DNA from: Neobacillus sp. DY30
GTDB taxonomy: Bacteria > Bacillota > Bacilli > Bacillales > Cytobacillaceae
NCBI RefSeq assembly: GCF_030123065.1
Contig: NZ_CP126093.1
Span: 5,276,001 to 5,340,000, forward strand
Length of the DNA stretch: 64,000 nt
Direction of reading: 5' to 3'
A program made the translations under genes and the position numbers. Shown here in pieces: positions 15,144 to 63,924 of the stretch. The notes below the pieces were generated by a model that ran no database searches, was not told where the DNA came from, and was given only the letters and a program-made list of their open reading frames with translations. How positions within the stretch are numbered: position 1 is the first letter of the stretch; each line of letters starts with the position of its first letter.

Positions 15144-15152
15144 GGGCTGCAA

Positions 15153-15197
15153 CTGTCCGCCTGAGGTGGACAGTGTCCACGAGCGGTGACAGGCACC
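15153..15197 (+). repeat. REP-like palindromic element, full 45-bp unit (copy 1)
   Basis: The unit joins the imperfect palindrome GTCCGCCTGAGGTGGAC, a TGTCCACGAGC segment and the core GGTGACAGGCACC. It is identical over 45 bp to the units at 18028 and 32268. GTGGACA can pair with either GTCCGCC or the following TGTCCAC, giving two exclusive hairpins. Confidence 0.9.
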
Positions 15198-18018: not shown

Positions 18019-18027
18019 ACCCCGCAA

Positions 18028-18072
18028 CTGTCCGCCTGAGGTGGACAGTGTCCACGAGCGGTGACAGGCACC
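18028..18072 (+). repeat. REP-like palindromic element, full 45-bp unit (copy 2)
   Basis: Identical over 45 bp to the unit at 15153. It lies directly after a terminator and before the small gene that ends at 18086. Confidence 0.9.
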
Positions 18073-20633: not shown

Positions 20634-20751
20634 TACATAAATCGCAGAGGATCGTGTTCGGTAACTGGCTGGCATCGTTGTAAAAAACATTAGCCCCTGT
20701 AGTTTTGCGTCACCATTTTTCAATAGTTTTGCCGTTTCGTACGATTTATGT
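20634..20751 (-). promoter_or_regulatory. Cyclic-di-GMP-I (GEMM-I) riboswitch
   Basis: The minus strand reads GAAACGGCAAAAC, then GGTGACGCAAAACTACAGG, GGCTAA, a variable loop, and ATGCCAGCCAGTTACCG. These are the conserved GEMM-I elements: GGCAAA, GACGCAAA, the tetraloop-receptor region and GCC-x-GTTACCG. Core span is about 20655-20745. Two flanking pairings are possible: ATCGT with ACGAT closing P1, or the longer ACATAAATCG with CGATTTATGT (20634-20643), which may form the expression platform just before the GGAGG site of the 57-aa gene. Confidence 0.88.
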
Positions 20752-23876: not shown

Positions 23877-23956
23877 GACACGTGATATGGTGACACGTGA
23901 TATGGTGACATGGTGACAGGCACCACCCGTGGACAATTTCCACCCTAGGTGGACAG
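23877..23956 (-). repeat. REP-like element (copy 3) with tandem 15-bp additions
   Basis: The core GGTGACAGGCACC (23912-23924) is followed by inverted-orientation arms (CCGTGGAC, TCCACCCTAGGTGGACAG). Before it lie two exact copies of GACACGTGATATGGT (23877-23891, 23892-23906) and a partial third. The left flank TTTTTGGGCTGCA also flanks copy 1. The 390-bp gap 23689-24079 otherwise holds the sigma-W promoter and AT-rich sequence; a CATAGGATA at 24023 matches a sigma-K-type -10 but lacks a clear -35. Confidence 0.8.
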
Positions 23957-25582: not shown

Positions 25583-25627
25583 CTGTCCGCCTCAGGTGGA
25601 AAGTGTCCACGAGTGGTGACAGGCACC
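25583..25627 (+). repeat. REP-like palindromic element, full unit (copy 4)
   Basis: This 45-bp unit differs from copy 1 at three positions and lies just after the zupT terminator. An apparent N-terminal extension of the S1C protease reading frame runs through it and is not real coding. Confidence 0.88.
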
Positions 25628-27165: not shown

Positions 27166-27178
27166 GGTGACAGGCACC
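27166..27178 (+). repeat. REP-like core only (copy 5)
   Basis: GGTGACAGGCACC alone, preceded by TATAAATAAGG and AATAATT. It sits 56 bp after the protease stop. Confidence 0.75.
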
Positions 27179-29865: not shown

Positions 29866-29931
29866 CTATCCACATGAGGGGTAGAAGTGTCCACCCTGGA
29901 TGGAAAGTGTCCACGAGCGGTGCCTGTCACC
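29866..29931 (+). repeat. REP-like element, variant with inverted core (copy 6)
   Basis: Arms (CTATCCACATGAGG, GTGTCCACCCTGGATGGA, AGTGTCCACGAGC) are in forward orientation, but the core is GGTGCCTGTCACC (29919-29931), the reverse complement of the usual core. It lies 11 bp after a terminator, downstream of comM on the far side of the RAYT-comM pair. Confidence 0.8.
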
Positions 29932-30031: not shown

Positions 30032-31516
30032 TCATCGAAGCTTTACGGCTTCCCAAATGCTTTGGTCGGTTATGGTGGTATTTCCTTCTAGGTCTGAAAT
30101 GGTTCGAGCTAAGCGGATGATTTTTATTTGGGTGCGGTTGCTCCAGTTTTTCTTCGCTGCGAGTTGGTGGATTAATTTCTGCTGGTCTGATGTTAATGGG
30201 CTTGTTTTTTGCAGCATTTCATAGCTCACTCTACTATTACATAATTCTTTTCCATACCGCTCATACTGCCGGCTTCTTGCAGCTTCTATCCTCCTTTGAA
30301 CTACTTTTGAGGTGTCCCTTACTATTGTGGTGTCTCTATCAAAGTCAACTGGCTTCATGGTAAGACGAATATCAAACCGGTCACGAAGCGGACCAGAAAT
30401 TTTATTTTGATAGTTTTGAGCCTGCCGTGGTGTGCATGTGCAATAGTGCGAATTCGAACTAGCATATCCACACGGACACGGATTCATGGCAGCCAGTAAG
30501 ATAAAGGAAGCAGGATAGGTTAGTGTGGCATGCGTTCTGCTGATGGTGATTTTTCCACTCTCAAACGGCTGGCGAAGCATATCAAGTGTTTTTTTTGGAA
30601 ATTCAGCAATTTCATCAAGGAATAAGACACCGCGATGAGCTAATGATATCTCCCCAGGCTTTGGATATGTCCCTCCGCCAATAATTGAAATCCCTGAGGC
30701 AGAATGATGAGGATTTCGGAATGGAGGGATATTGGCGTAAGGGTAAGGTGTTCCACTTAATTGGTGTAAAGCAATGATTTCAAGGCGTGCTTCTTTTGAC
30801 AATGGAGGCAGAATAGATGGAAAGCTCTCAGCAAGCATACTTTTTCCACAACCAGGCGGTCCTGTCATCAAGACATGATGTTCCCCGGCTGCCGCCACTT
30901 CCAACGCCCTTTTCGTGCCACTATGACCAATAATCTGTTGAAAATCTATATAACTATTATGATCCGAACCAACTTCTTCCTTTTTGGGAGTAAAAAGAGA
31001 CCCTCCCCTTCCCTCTAAATTCTCAATCACTTCTCTTAAACTAGAAGTATAAATAATTTCCAGTCCGTCAATATCGAGAATTGGCTGCTTGTCGTCATAC
31101 GGCATATATAACTTTTTAATCCCCAGCCTTTTAGCTGCTAATACGGCTGGCAGCATGCCTTCTACTGGCACTACCGCTCCATCCAGCGACAACGCTCCAA
31201 TAAACCCATAGTTCTCAGGAATAGAAGTGACCAGTTCATCCAAACTTAACAGCACTCCGATTGCCATAGGTAAATCAAACATGGGACCACTTTTCTTTTG
31301 CTCTGAGGGTGATAGGTTTATAATGATTTTTTGACCATTTATGGTATACCCTAATGAACGAAGTGCAGCACTAATTCGTTCCTTCGACTCCTTAACAGCA
31401 GCGTCAGGAAGACCCACAATTCGTATCGAATCATTTCCCACAAACGTTTTTACCTCTACATTGAGACGATAACCCTCCATACCTTTCAAACCAATACTCG
31501 TTACTTTCGCACACAT
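30032..31516 (-). CDS. comM: ComM/YifB family Mg-chelatase-like AAA+ ATPase
   Basis: This full-length protein of 494 aa has an N-terminal Lon-protease-like fold (VGLPDAAVKESKERI, FDLPMAIGVL, FIGALSLDGAVVPV), Walker A GPPGCGKSM, Walker B VLFLDEIAEF and the Cys-rich MNPCPCGY element. The C-terminal Mg-chelatase part begins near FDIRLTM. ComM is a hexameric helicase that widens branch migration when single-stranded DNA is integrated during transformation. Its start overlaps the end of the RAYT gene by 16 bp, so the two are translationally coupled. No other competence gene is in the window. Confidence 0.9.
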   Translation of the reverse strand: MCAKVTSIGLKGMEGYRLNVEVKTFVGNDSIRIVGLPDAAVKESKERISAALRSLGYTINGQKIIINLSPSEQKKSGPMFDLPMAIGVLLSLDELVTSIPENYGFIGALSLDGAVVPVEGMLPAVLAAKRLGIKKLYMPYDDKQPILDIDGLEIIYTSSLREVIENLEGRGGSLFTPKKEEVGSDHNSYIDFQQIIGHSGTKRALEVAAAGEHHVLMTGPPGCGKSMLAESFPSILPPLSKEARLEIIALHQLSGTPYPYANIPPFRNPHHSASGISIIGGGTYPKPGEISLAHRGVLFLDEIAEFPKKTLDMLRQPFESGKITISRTHATLTYPASFILLAAMNPCPCGYASSNSHYCTCTPRQAQNYQNKISGPLRDRFDIRLTMKPVDFDRDTTIVRDTSKVVQRRIEAARSRQYERYGKELCNSRVSYEMLQKTSPLTSDQQKLIHQLAAKKNWSNRTQIKIIRLARTISDLEGNTTITDQSIWEAVKLR

Positions 31517-32112
31517 GGATTTTCCTCTTTTCTGGGAATCATCACAACTTTTCTATTGTCGAGTAAAAATAAATCCATTAGTGGTGTTTTTATGTATTCT
31601 TCATAATGCTGAGATGCAGGATCGGGGAAATAGGATAGTAGATGTTTCGTGTCGACCAGCTTGTTTACCTCGCCATACACATAAGCGTTGTAACTGCTCC
31701 ATGGATAGTCCTCTAGTTGATCGACAAGCCCCGCTTTCAATGGATTGAGGTGGATATACTTGCTGACATCGAATTCGTAATCAAGCGAATCTAGTAATTC
31801 GGCACCATAGCGTTTTTCAAAAACGTGGCCGGTAAAATCATATTTCTTATTAAAATACTTGGCAAATTTGGTATTGAAATGACTCATGATAATGGTGGGA
31901 GAAGTGTCTGAGGTTTCAATTTGGAGATGAGTATGATTGGACATTAAGCAGAAAGCGTGGAGCGTAAAAGGGAATCGAGTCTTAGTTTCTTGCAATAAAC
32001 TTAGATATTTAATGCGATCCCCATCATCATAAAATAAGGTAGATTTTCGATTACCTCTACTAGTAATATGATACTTTGCACCTGGAAACCAAGCACGGCG
32101 TTTTCGACCCAT
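31501..32112 (-). CDS. REP-associated tyrosine transposase (RAYT, Y1/HUH family)
   Basis: This protein of 203 aa begins MGRKRRAWFPGAKYHITSRG, the common start of Y1_Tnp/RAYT proteins. The HUH motif is SNHTHLQIE (His-x-His), and the catalytic Tyr lies in SKYIHLNPLKAGLV, a strong RAYT signature. Y1 enzymes nick and join single-stranded DNA at hairpins. The gene lacks IS200-type ends; instead, REP-like units lie at 32268 upstream and 29866 beyond comM. I chose ATG 32112 because AGGAG lies upstream at 32121-32125; the GTG at 32121 overlaps that site. It overlaps comM by 16 bp. The His, His and Tyr residues are intact, so it is probably active. Confidence 0.88.
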   Translation of the reverse strand: MGRKRRAWFPGAKYHITSRGNRKSTLFYDDGDRIKYLSLLQETKTRFPFTLHAFCLMSNHTHLQIETSDTSPTIIMSHFNTKFAKYFNKKYDFTGHVFEKRYGAELLDSLDYEFDVSKYIHLNPLKAGLVDQLEDYPWSSYNAYVYGEVNKLVDTKHLLSYFPDPASQHYEEYIKTPLMDLFLLDNRKVVMIPRKEENPCVRK

Positions 32113-32267
32113 AGCAGTCACTCCTATTCAATTGGAATTTTGGGAACTAACCTTTTTAAAGAAAGGTTAAAACCGAGGAAAAAAACAAAGCAAAGATTCA
32201 AATAGTATCATTCGACACCCTTCCCCAAATTCCTTCCTCAAACTCTAATAAGGAAAAAATTAACATA

Positions 32268-32330
32268 CTGTCCGCCTGAGGTGGACAGTGTCCACGAGCG
32301 GTGACAGGCACCCTGGCAGGCACCCTGGCA
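32268..32330 (+). repeat. REP-like palindromic element, full unit (copy 7) upstream of the RAYT gene
   Basis: Positions 32268-32312 are identical to copies 1 and 2 over 45 bp. An extension repeats CTGGCAGGCACC-type sequence to 32330. It lies about 155 bp upstream of the RAYT start, in the 359-bp gap 32113-32471, which otherwise shows AT-rich promoter-like sequence for both flanking genes but no clear motif. Confidence 0.9.
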
Positions 32331-36877: not shown

Positions 36878-36906
36878 GAATCATATCAACATTGATCTCA
36901 CGATAA

Positions 36907-37000
36907 TCTTTTCCTGCACTTCCCCACGCTAGTATTATCTAGATCGGGTCATAAGGGTCAGACAAACGTCCTCTCAGCCAAAAAGCTCCCCTAGTGCAAA
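36907..37000 (-). promoter_or_regulatory. TPP (THI-box) riboswitch
   Basis: The minus strand holds AGGGGAGC, GGCTGAGAGGA, GACCCTTATGACCCGATCTAG split over its two halves, and AATACTAGCGTGGGGAA. These are the conserved THI elements (CTGAGA, ACCCTT, GATCTGGATAATACCAGC, GGGGAA). P1 is closed by TGCACT with AGTGCA. It lies directly upstream of ykoFEDC and is expected to switch the operon off when thiamine pyrophosphate is abundant. Confidence 0.96.
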
Positions 37001-37079
37001 AACCGTATGCAATTTTTCGTTGCCCTAATAATATGATAATATTTCCAATATGTAAAGGGTGTTTTCTTCAGAAATACAG

Positions 37080-37150
37080 TGCCTTCGTTATGGTGCCTTC
37101 GTTACGGTGCCTGTCACCGCTCGTGGACACTGTCCACCTCAGGCGGACAC
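37080..37150 (-). repeat. REP-like element, complete reverse unit (copy 8) with tandem core fragments
   Basis: GGTGCCTGTCACC (37106-37118) and the inverted arms to 37149 are the exact reverse complement of copy 1 except for the outermost base. Two copies of GGTGCCTTCGTTA-type sequence precede it. The gap 36818-37340 holds this element, the TPP riboswitch and copy 9. Confidence 0.88.
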
Positions 37151-37286: not shown

Positions 37287-37321
37287 GATGTATAAACGGT
37301 GACAGGCACCAAAAGAGGCAC
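37287..37321 (+). repeat. REP-like core with TATAAAC extension (copy 9)
   Basis: The 24 bp at 37287-37310 (GATGTATAAACGG then TGACAGGCACC) recur exactly at 39372-39395, so the pair directly flanks the molybdopterin oxidoreductase gene. An extra AGAGGCACC follows. Confidence 0.85.
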
Positions 37322-39380: not shown

Positions 39381-39412
39381 ACGGTGACAGGCACCGCCAT
39401 TCCGGCGGTGCC
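39372..39412 (+). repeat. REP-like core with TATAAAC extension and 9-bp hairpin (copy 10)
   Basis: The 24 bp at 39372-39395 repeat those at 37287. GGCACCGCC-ATTCC-GGCGGTGCC (39390-39412) is a perfect 9-bp stem that may act as a terminator for the convergent genes. The repeat includes the TAA stop of the oxidoreductase. Confidence 0.85.
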
Positions 39413-47325: not shown

Positions 47326-47370
47326 CTGTCCACCTGAGGTGGACAGTGTCCACGAGCGGTGACAGGCACC
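47326..47370 (+). repeat. REP-like palindromic element, full unit (copy 11)
   Basis: It differs from copy 1 by one base (GTCCACC for GTCCGCC), which makes the first palindrome more perfect. It lies 17 bp beyond the stop of the gene at 47388. Confidence 0.9.
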
Positions 47371-51654: not shown

Positions 51655-51667
51655 GGTGCCTGTCACC
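51655..51667 (-). repeat. REP-like core (copy 12)
   Basis: GGTGCCTGTCACC followed by ATTTATGC; on the minus strand this reads GCATAAATGGTGACAGGCACC-like, the same extension type as copies 9 and 10. Confidence 0.75.
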
Positions 51668-52846: not shown

Positions 52847-52859
52847 GGTGACAGGCACC
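52847..52859 (+). repeat. REP-like core (copy 13)
   Basis: GGTGACAGGCACC alone, 20 bp after a terminator and 45 bp before copy 14. Confidence 0.75.
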
Positions 52860-52903: not shown

Positions 52904-52948
52904 CTGTCCGCCTCAGGTGGACAGTGTCCACGAGTGGTGACAGGCACC
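52904..52948 (+). repeat. REP-like palindromic element, full unit (copy 14)
   Basis: It differs from copy 1 at two positions (CTCAGG, GAGT). It is followed by a CCACC-rich stretch before the alaR gene. Confidence 0.9.
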
Positions 52949-63846: not shown

Positions 63847-63924
63847 GGTGACAGTTATGGATGACAATAAATTGGTGACAGGCACCGCTCGTGGACAGTG
63901 TCCACCCCATGTGGACACTGTCAC
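63847..63924 (-). repeat. REP-like element (copy 15), variant
   Basis: The core GGTGACAGGCACC (63874-63886) is followed by inverted arms, then an 11-bp perfect inverted repeat (ACAGTGTCCAC, CCCAT, GTGGACACTGT). A partial GGTGACAG precedes it at 63847. It lies 15 bp after a terminator. Confidence 0.82.

Follow-up and report, generated by a model that had tools for sequence, protein, structure and literature searches.

The systems closest to that described here are the REP-associated tyrosine transposases (RAYTs) and the TIRYTs. In the available part of the work of Di Nocera et al. (PMC3733652), TIRYT genes are flanked by inverted repeats, some of which share the motif GGGGWSAS. The accessible portion of PMC6006769 places 20 of 26 TIRYTs in TnpA-Y1 subclass 2.1, which is matched to RAYT group 1 and is described there as lacking REP-like sequences and as having a C-terminal helix-turn-helix (HTH)-like domain; the main text mentions neither Firmicutes nor Bacillus. 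Coevolution of RAYTs with REPs is reported in the available sections of PMC2817692, homologs outside the gammaproteobacteria not having been found at that time, and those of PMC8266576 and PMC8049555 describe, respectively, two TnpA-REP groups that read their repeats differently and vertical inheritance of RAYTs. Here we consider a RAYT gene, its neighbour comM and a dispersed 13-base repeat core in a 64,000-nucleotide stretch (the window; G000:C1:5276001-5340000) of the 6.14 Mb genome of Neobacillus sp. DY30 (G000, the source genome; G-numbers denote genomes and L-numbers RAYT loci). The core, GGTGWCAGGCACC (W = A or T), is probably what a domesticated RAYT, vertically inherited and encoded next to comM, recognizes in a short hairpin repeat that it would nick and copy. 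According to this proposal, the RAYT would nick and rejoin hairpins that form in single-stranded DNA and carry its own base-5 allele and, over long times, new intergenic copies would be seeded and old ones renewed or replaced in place.

The protein, P0001 (206 residues), is encoded on the minus strand at 31501..32121, in a frame that opens with GTG at 32121 and has an ATG at 32112. Its family assignment, motifs and fold are those of a RAYT-type protein. The comparisons made at these three levels find the Y1 HUH fold and catalytic motifs, including the NHTH (residues 62-65) and SKYIHLNP motifs that a preliminary description of the stretch had correctly identified as intact, and H63, H65 and Y122 are invariant across 39 aligned RAYTs. 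Y1_Tnp is the sole Pfam domain scoring at E 1e-3; the NCBIfam equivalog label is not claimed, because P0001 scores 70.9 bits against REP_Tyr_transpos, under the curated cut-off of 80. The gene is present in low copy, P0001 having four matches in the source genome, itself among them; two other Y1_Tnp matches there are one of a longer class and one broken copy.

The core has two alleles at base 5, A (GGTGACAGGCACC) and T (GGTGTCAGGCACC). The window contains 15 exact copies of the A allele (shuffled sequence averages 0.51, maximum 2) and no copies with one or two mismatches, and the source genome as a whole contains 86 exact and 20 one-mismatch copies. All 15 window copies, in line with the roughly 15 intergenic REP-like elements previously proposed, and 69 of the 86 genomic copies lie outside ATG-started frames of at least 150 residues, although the window copies at 25615 and 37298 touch longer frames if TTG and GTG are also accepted as start codons. 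In its folded form the core has a stem of 4 bp and a loop of 5 nt.

The association of the core with RAYTs, and the agreement between the allele beside the RAYT and that prevailing in the genome, are strongly supported. Across 193 genomes of the family, counts of GGTGACAGGCACC range from 0 to 162. For 17/17 RAYTs of the window's clade (at least 71% identity, its own included), a core lies no more than 700 bases from the open frame, and their genomes contain 43-111 copies. Genomes with sister RAYTs (about 60% identity) mostly have few exact GGTGACAGGCACC copies, yet each has 88-359 matches within one mismatch, and the 800-base flanks of the sister genes contain GGTGTCAGGCACC. In a survey of 61 Neobacillus genomes and 33 genomes of other genera picked for copy number, the RAYT is A-linked in 23 of the Neobacillus genomes (35-111 A and 0-56 T copies), T-linked in 21 (89-333 T copies on searching with GGTGTCAGGCACC, and 0-53 A copies), and in 17 there is no linked RAYT. 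The linked allele is the majority allele in all 44 Neobacillus genomes with a linked RAYT. Linkage to repeats elsewhere, which had been anticipated, thus recurs within Neobacillus and also in 20 of the 33 genomes of other genera, where the RAYT adjoins an A core; linked and majority alleles agree in 63/64 genomes overall, the exception being G007.

The gene adjoining the RAYT, comM, is a DNA branch-migration gene; it lies on the same strand at 30032..31516 (Pfam ChlI, Mg_chelatase and Mg_chelatase_C) and overlaps the 3' end of the RAYT gene by 16 bases. All 47 Neobacillus clade RAYTs in the tree have comM, whole or in part, beside them on the same strand, overlapping or at most 20 bases away. 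In the whole tree this is so for 70/122 RAYTs (comM downstream in 61, upstream in nine), including 23/75 outside the Neobacillus set, and strongly supported forks force at least six changes. The RAYT-comM pair is bracketed by inverted copies of one allele at 19 of 41 loci read or, counting this RAYT clade once per genome, in 16/27 Neobacillus genomes, in 14 of which the comM-side copy begins at most 60 bases from the comM match. In the window, the bracket is formed by a 46-base composite unit upstream of the RAYT (32267..32312, plus strand; 13-mer at 32300-32312) and an inverted 13-mer beyond comM (29919..29931, minus strand), where a variant unit had indeed been described. The adjacency of comM to RAYTs in both gene orders, with inverted copies bracketing the pair, is new, and neighbourhood and bracket together are what was least expected and offer the best lead.

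A further possibility, in our view a rather unlikely one, is that RAYT and ComM constitute a two-gene module with which Bacillaceae rewrite, in place, hairpins dispersed between their genes. The RAYT would open single-stranded hairpins and ComM would branch-migrate the exchange, such that existing sites would be converted to the core read by the resident RAYT or inverted around it; a change in the RAYT would then eventually change every genomic site. At L006, L008, L022 and L179, comM is cut to 25-47 residues in the stretch read and the RAYT frame is whole, so repeats can be maintained even where the adjacent comM is not intact. Split or truncated comM beside an intact RAYT was seen in several Neobacillus genomes, that with L009 among them.

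The fate of individual copies was followed at shared sites. Retention was scored over the part with synteny to the window, in which 24 site-genome pairs cover 10 of the 15 sites in four relatives. The exact core is kept in 22 of the 24 pairs, in one of them inverted; one copy has decayed and one is absent (G119 at 32300, where a core is present farther along a 718-base gap). Mean flank identity is 83% across all 46 mapped pairs, which include G135 sites outside the syntenic part that were chosen for holding the core and left out of the retention rate. Clean in-place inversions occur at 591432 and 637839 in G135 and at 5313298 in G118. Just 3' of a protease-like gene (site 27166), the many T-clade genomes with a core there have the T allele, and the four genomes of a further clade (clade B) carry the A allele in the same orientation; in-place change and new insertion at such a site are told apart by flanks only. 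Of 23 T-clade, clade B or RAYT-less genomes compared upstream of the same gene (site 25615), 20 showed no core in the nearest 200 bases, a comparison in which the start codon is misplaced in several genomes; the remaining three (G109, G123 and G160) have the T allele.

Exact retention at orthologous places is also what would be seen if the 13-mer were a host site, e.g. a protein-binding or RNA-hairpin signal, held exact by ordinary selection with the RAYT as a bystander. The position of some copies between promoter-like sequence and ribosome-binding site, as judged by eye, and the persistence of copies without a RAYT are consistent with such a role. We consider it unlikely, however, as it does not predict three of the findings: the majority allele is the RAYT-linked one in all 44 Neobacillus genomes with a linked RAYT, the core is also linked to distant RAYTs of other genera, and one-base variants are more numerous in genomes that lack the RAYT.

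The last of these points comes from 14 Neobacillus genomes without a detected gene of this RAYT clade (RAYT-less). Four have no P0001 match and ten have a best match of at most 53% identity or with a weak E-value; of the ten, only G103 and G151 were included in the tree, where neither falls within the clade. At least 35 copies are present in 47/47 Neobacillus genomes with a clade RAYT, and at most 27 of either allele in six of the 14 RAYT-less genomes (Fisher p 5e-5, with the cut set after looking and relatedness uncorrected). The other eight keep at least 60 copies; abundance thus follows RAYT presence in part, as had been suggested, and as a strict tracker it is rejected. Because of this split among the RAYT-less genomes, repeat identity tracks the RAYT better than repeat abundance does. 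One-base variants per exact copy number 0.33-0.56 in seven T-rich RAYT-less genomes versus 0.18-0.48 in 23 with the gene (Mann-Whitney p 3e-4, relatedness uncorrected); the eighth copy-rich exception, G103, is A-rich and lies outside this comparison. In G147, which has no P0001 match, neither RAYT nor comM was found in the stretch read around the protease-like gene.

An explanation from pure ancestry, in which an old burst of copies was co-inherited with a now inert RAYT and the allele agreement mirrors the species tree, is quite improbable. It accords with the conserved places of the RAYT and of many copies, and with the few changes that both characters undergo, but not readily with the invariance of H63, H65 and Y122. 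Nor does it fit clade B, four genomes nested in the T clade (support of 97 for the clade itself and 99 for the two forks around it, in a quick tree), whose RAYT is linked to A and whose genomes have an A majority beside 23-56 T copies. A further point against it is G058, of a different genus, where in the region G058:C4:199357-249511 a Neobacillus-like RAYT (60% identity) lies beside a divergent comM and 11/21 T copies of the genome are within 34 kb of the RAYT; this looks like transfer of gene plus allele, although co-transfer of a segment is possible. Elsewhere, 15/86 copies in the source genome and 17/27 A copies in G007 (contigs joined end to end) are within 50 kb of the RAYT, local clustering equalled by 1.2% and 0.7% of random places, respectively; in G107 the figure is 7/68 copies, and 4% of random places do as well. 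Such clustering is suggestive of local spread around the RAYT gene, with segment co-transfer again possible; other clusters of copies contain no known RAYT. That the repeats are elements of the miniature inverted-repeat transposable element kind, moved by another transposase, is very improbable: two module types do adjoin the 13-mer, but the core is found next to RAYTs from several lineages, some of which have it as an inverted pair immediately 3' of the gene.

The following observations weigh against the proposal that the resident RAYT serves the core, as do the eight copy-rich RAYT-less genomes. G007 is discordant (27 A versus 41 T copies), G130 has 88 A copies and a clade RAYT with no exact core in the 800 bases around it, no linked RAYT accompanies the 60 A copies of G103, and G141 and G142 are T-linked yet have 43 and 53 A copies. 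No linked RAYT was found in 13 of the 33 examined genomes of other genera; one of the 13, G028, holds 58 exact copies, with a fragment as its only RAYT sequence. The 44 concordant Neobacillus genomes are not independent cases, because the species are related; two clear lineages of allele change, clades A and B, were counted, and an in-place allele difference is known from one site. Looser limits, allowing longer gaps, give two more coreless pairs (47358 in G135 and 63874 in G118). About 17 of the 86 source-genome cores are within long open frames, which may be coding coincidence. No movement of copies and no cleavage were seen, and most comparable copies are at shared places, such that the earlier suggestion of a Firmicute RAYT counterpart that disperses these units is supported for protein type and linkage and is conjectural as to dispersal. 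In-frame cores include those at 974075, 2595373, 3437760 and 5056417, several of which could read VTGT; 17 of the 21 T-linked genomes have 0-8 A copies in total.

Variation in the core extends beyond base 5, with GGTGCCAGGCACC beside the RAYTs at L070 and L072, GGTGACAGACACC at L052 and L067, and GGGGTCAGACCCC or GGGGTCAGTCCCC at L058 and L135; GGGGTCAG motifs adjoin several more distant RAYTs collected here. At L140, L142, L160 and L172, in other genera, two inverted cores whose inner arms match each other make up a long palindrome just 3' of the RAYT. On the protein side, residue 24, directly after strand 1 of the model, is Asn in 40 of 44 A-linked RAYTs (Ile or Val in the other four) and Ile or Val in all 23 T-linked RAYTs in which it is readable. 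The available text of PMC8266576 places GTAG contacts partly in beta-1. As a general code for base 5, residue 24 was rejected, since Asn goes with GGGGTCAG repeats outside the clade and four A-linked RAYTs have Ile or Val; within clades A and B it is still a lead.

Many copies are composite units, because in the window the hairpin module GTCCRCC...GGYGGAC was found only 26-30 bases away from a 13-mer. By a crude rule, the neighbour of the core in the source genome is the GTCCAC hairpin module for 42/86 copies and AT-rich sequence for 13/86, both orientations occurring, and several copies carry tandem mini-repeats of half core plus local flank. The 46-base unit at 32267-32312 (ACTGTCC...GGCACC) begins 155 bases upstream of the RAYT ATG and is identical to the plus-strand units at 15152-15197 (13-mer at 15185) and 18027-18072 (13-mer at 18060), one base longer than the identity first described. 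The copy at 23912..23924 (+) has the module downstream and GGTGACA mini-repeats upstream and is orthologous in G118, G119, G122 and G135; that at 25615..25627 (+), with module, precedes the serine-protease-like gene and is orthologous in four relatives, and that at 27166..27178 (+) follows this gene. A module also accompanies the copies at 37106..37118 (-), 47358..47370 (+), 52936..52948 (+) and, downstream, 63874..63886 (+). The copy at 37298..37310 (+), in the leader of a molybdopterin-oxidoreductase-like gene (named by eye), is inverted in place in G118, and that at 52847..52859 (+) has a one-base-changed counterpart at the same place in G118. AT-rich contexts surround the copies at 39383..39395 (+), without the GTCCAC module, and 51655..51667 (-), in a gene leader. 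Rfam matches in the window are a TPP riboswitch (36904-37002, minus strand), whose end is some 100 bases away from the copy at 37106, and a c-di-GMP-I riboswitch (20657-20743, minus strand). No replication-strand bias was apparent: if base 1 is taken as the origin, one half of the genome has 15 plus and 16 minus copies and the other half has 31 plus and 24 minus. Literature searches, the largest listing being examined in part, gave no paper that could be tied to the 13-mer repeat; its letters occur in a single paper, on TDP-43, judging by the available part of that text.

Why domesticated transposases keep palindrome populations for so long is an open question that this system addresses. The close species constitute a natural experiment, in which a single position of the 13-base core matches the lineage of the resident transposase, one lineage is unlike its surrounding clade, others are without the gene, and the repeats are traceable site by site; the identity of linked and majority alleles makes transposase-repeat matching directly testable. 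The results extend RAYT-repeat systems to the Bacillaceae, indicate comM as a recurrent RAYT neighbour and, by motif, concern what looks like the subtype for which the accessible portion of PMC6006769 found no repeat.

Overall, the system is a variant of the RAYT/TIRYT kind and not a GTAG REP. The view that RAYT/REP systems are mainly proteobacterial fits the literature, as far as its available parts go, but the nearest known counterparts are TIRYT/TIR (PMC3733652) rather than GTAG REPs. In common with the TIRYTs, as described in that available text, there is a Y1 HUH protein with NHxH and YIHLNP motifs and there are flanking inverted repeats, here as the RAYT-comM bracket; GGTGWCAG fits the TIRYT motif GGGGWSAS at 7/8 positions, base 3 differing, and both vary A/T at base 5. 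Subclass 2.1 is reported, in the accessible account, to have an HTH-like domain and to lack REP-like sequences; here, by contrast, Y1_Tnp was the only Pfam domain to score and there are up to 333 copies per genome. The GTAG REP/RAYT systems of E. coli, Pseudomonas and Stenotrophomonas, as set out in the available sections of PMC2817692 and PMC8266576, share the fold and a vertically placed gene flanked by repeats. However, no conserved GTAG head lies 5' of the hairpin here, with no conserved GTAG or GGAG at -1 to -4 of the 86 source-genome copies, and the core is a fixed 13-mer common to many genera. The IS200/IS605 TnpA proteins (IS608, ISDra2) have the same catalytic fold, and their elements have hairpin-bearing ends; the gene here, by contrast, remains beside comM across Neobacillus and does not multiply. 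Two inverted cores with a short spacer, as found beside RAYTs of other genera, resemble a REPIN, whereas most window copies are single cores, many of them joined to the GTCCAC module.
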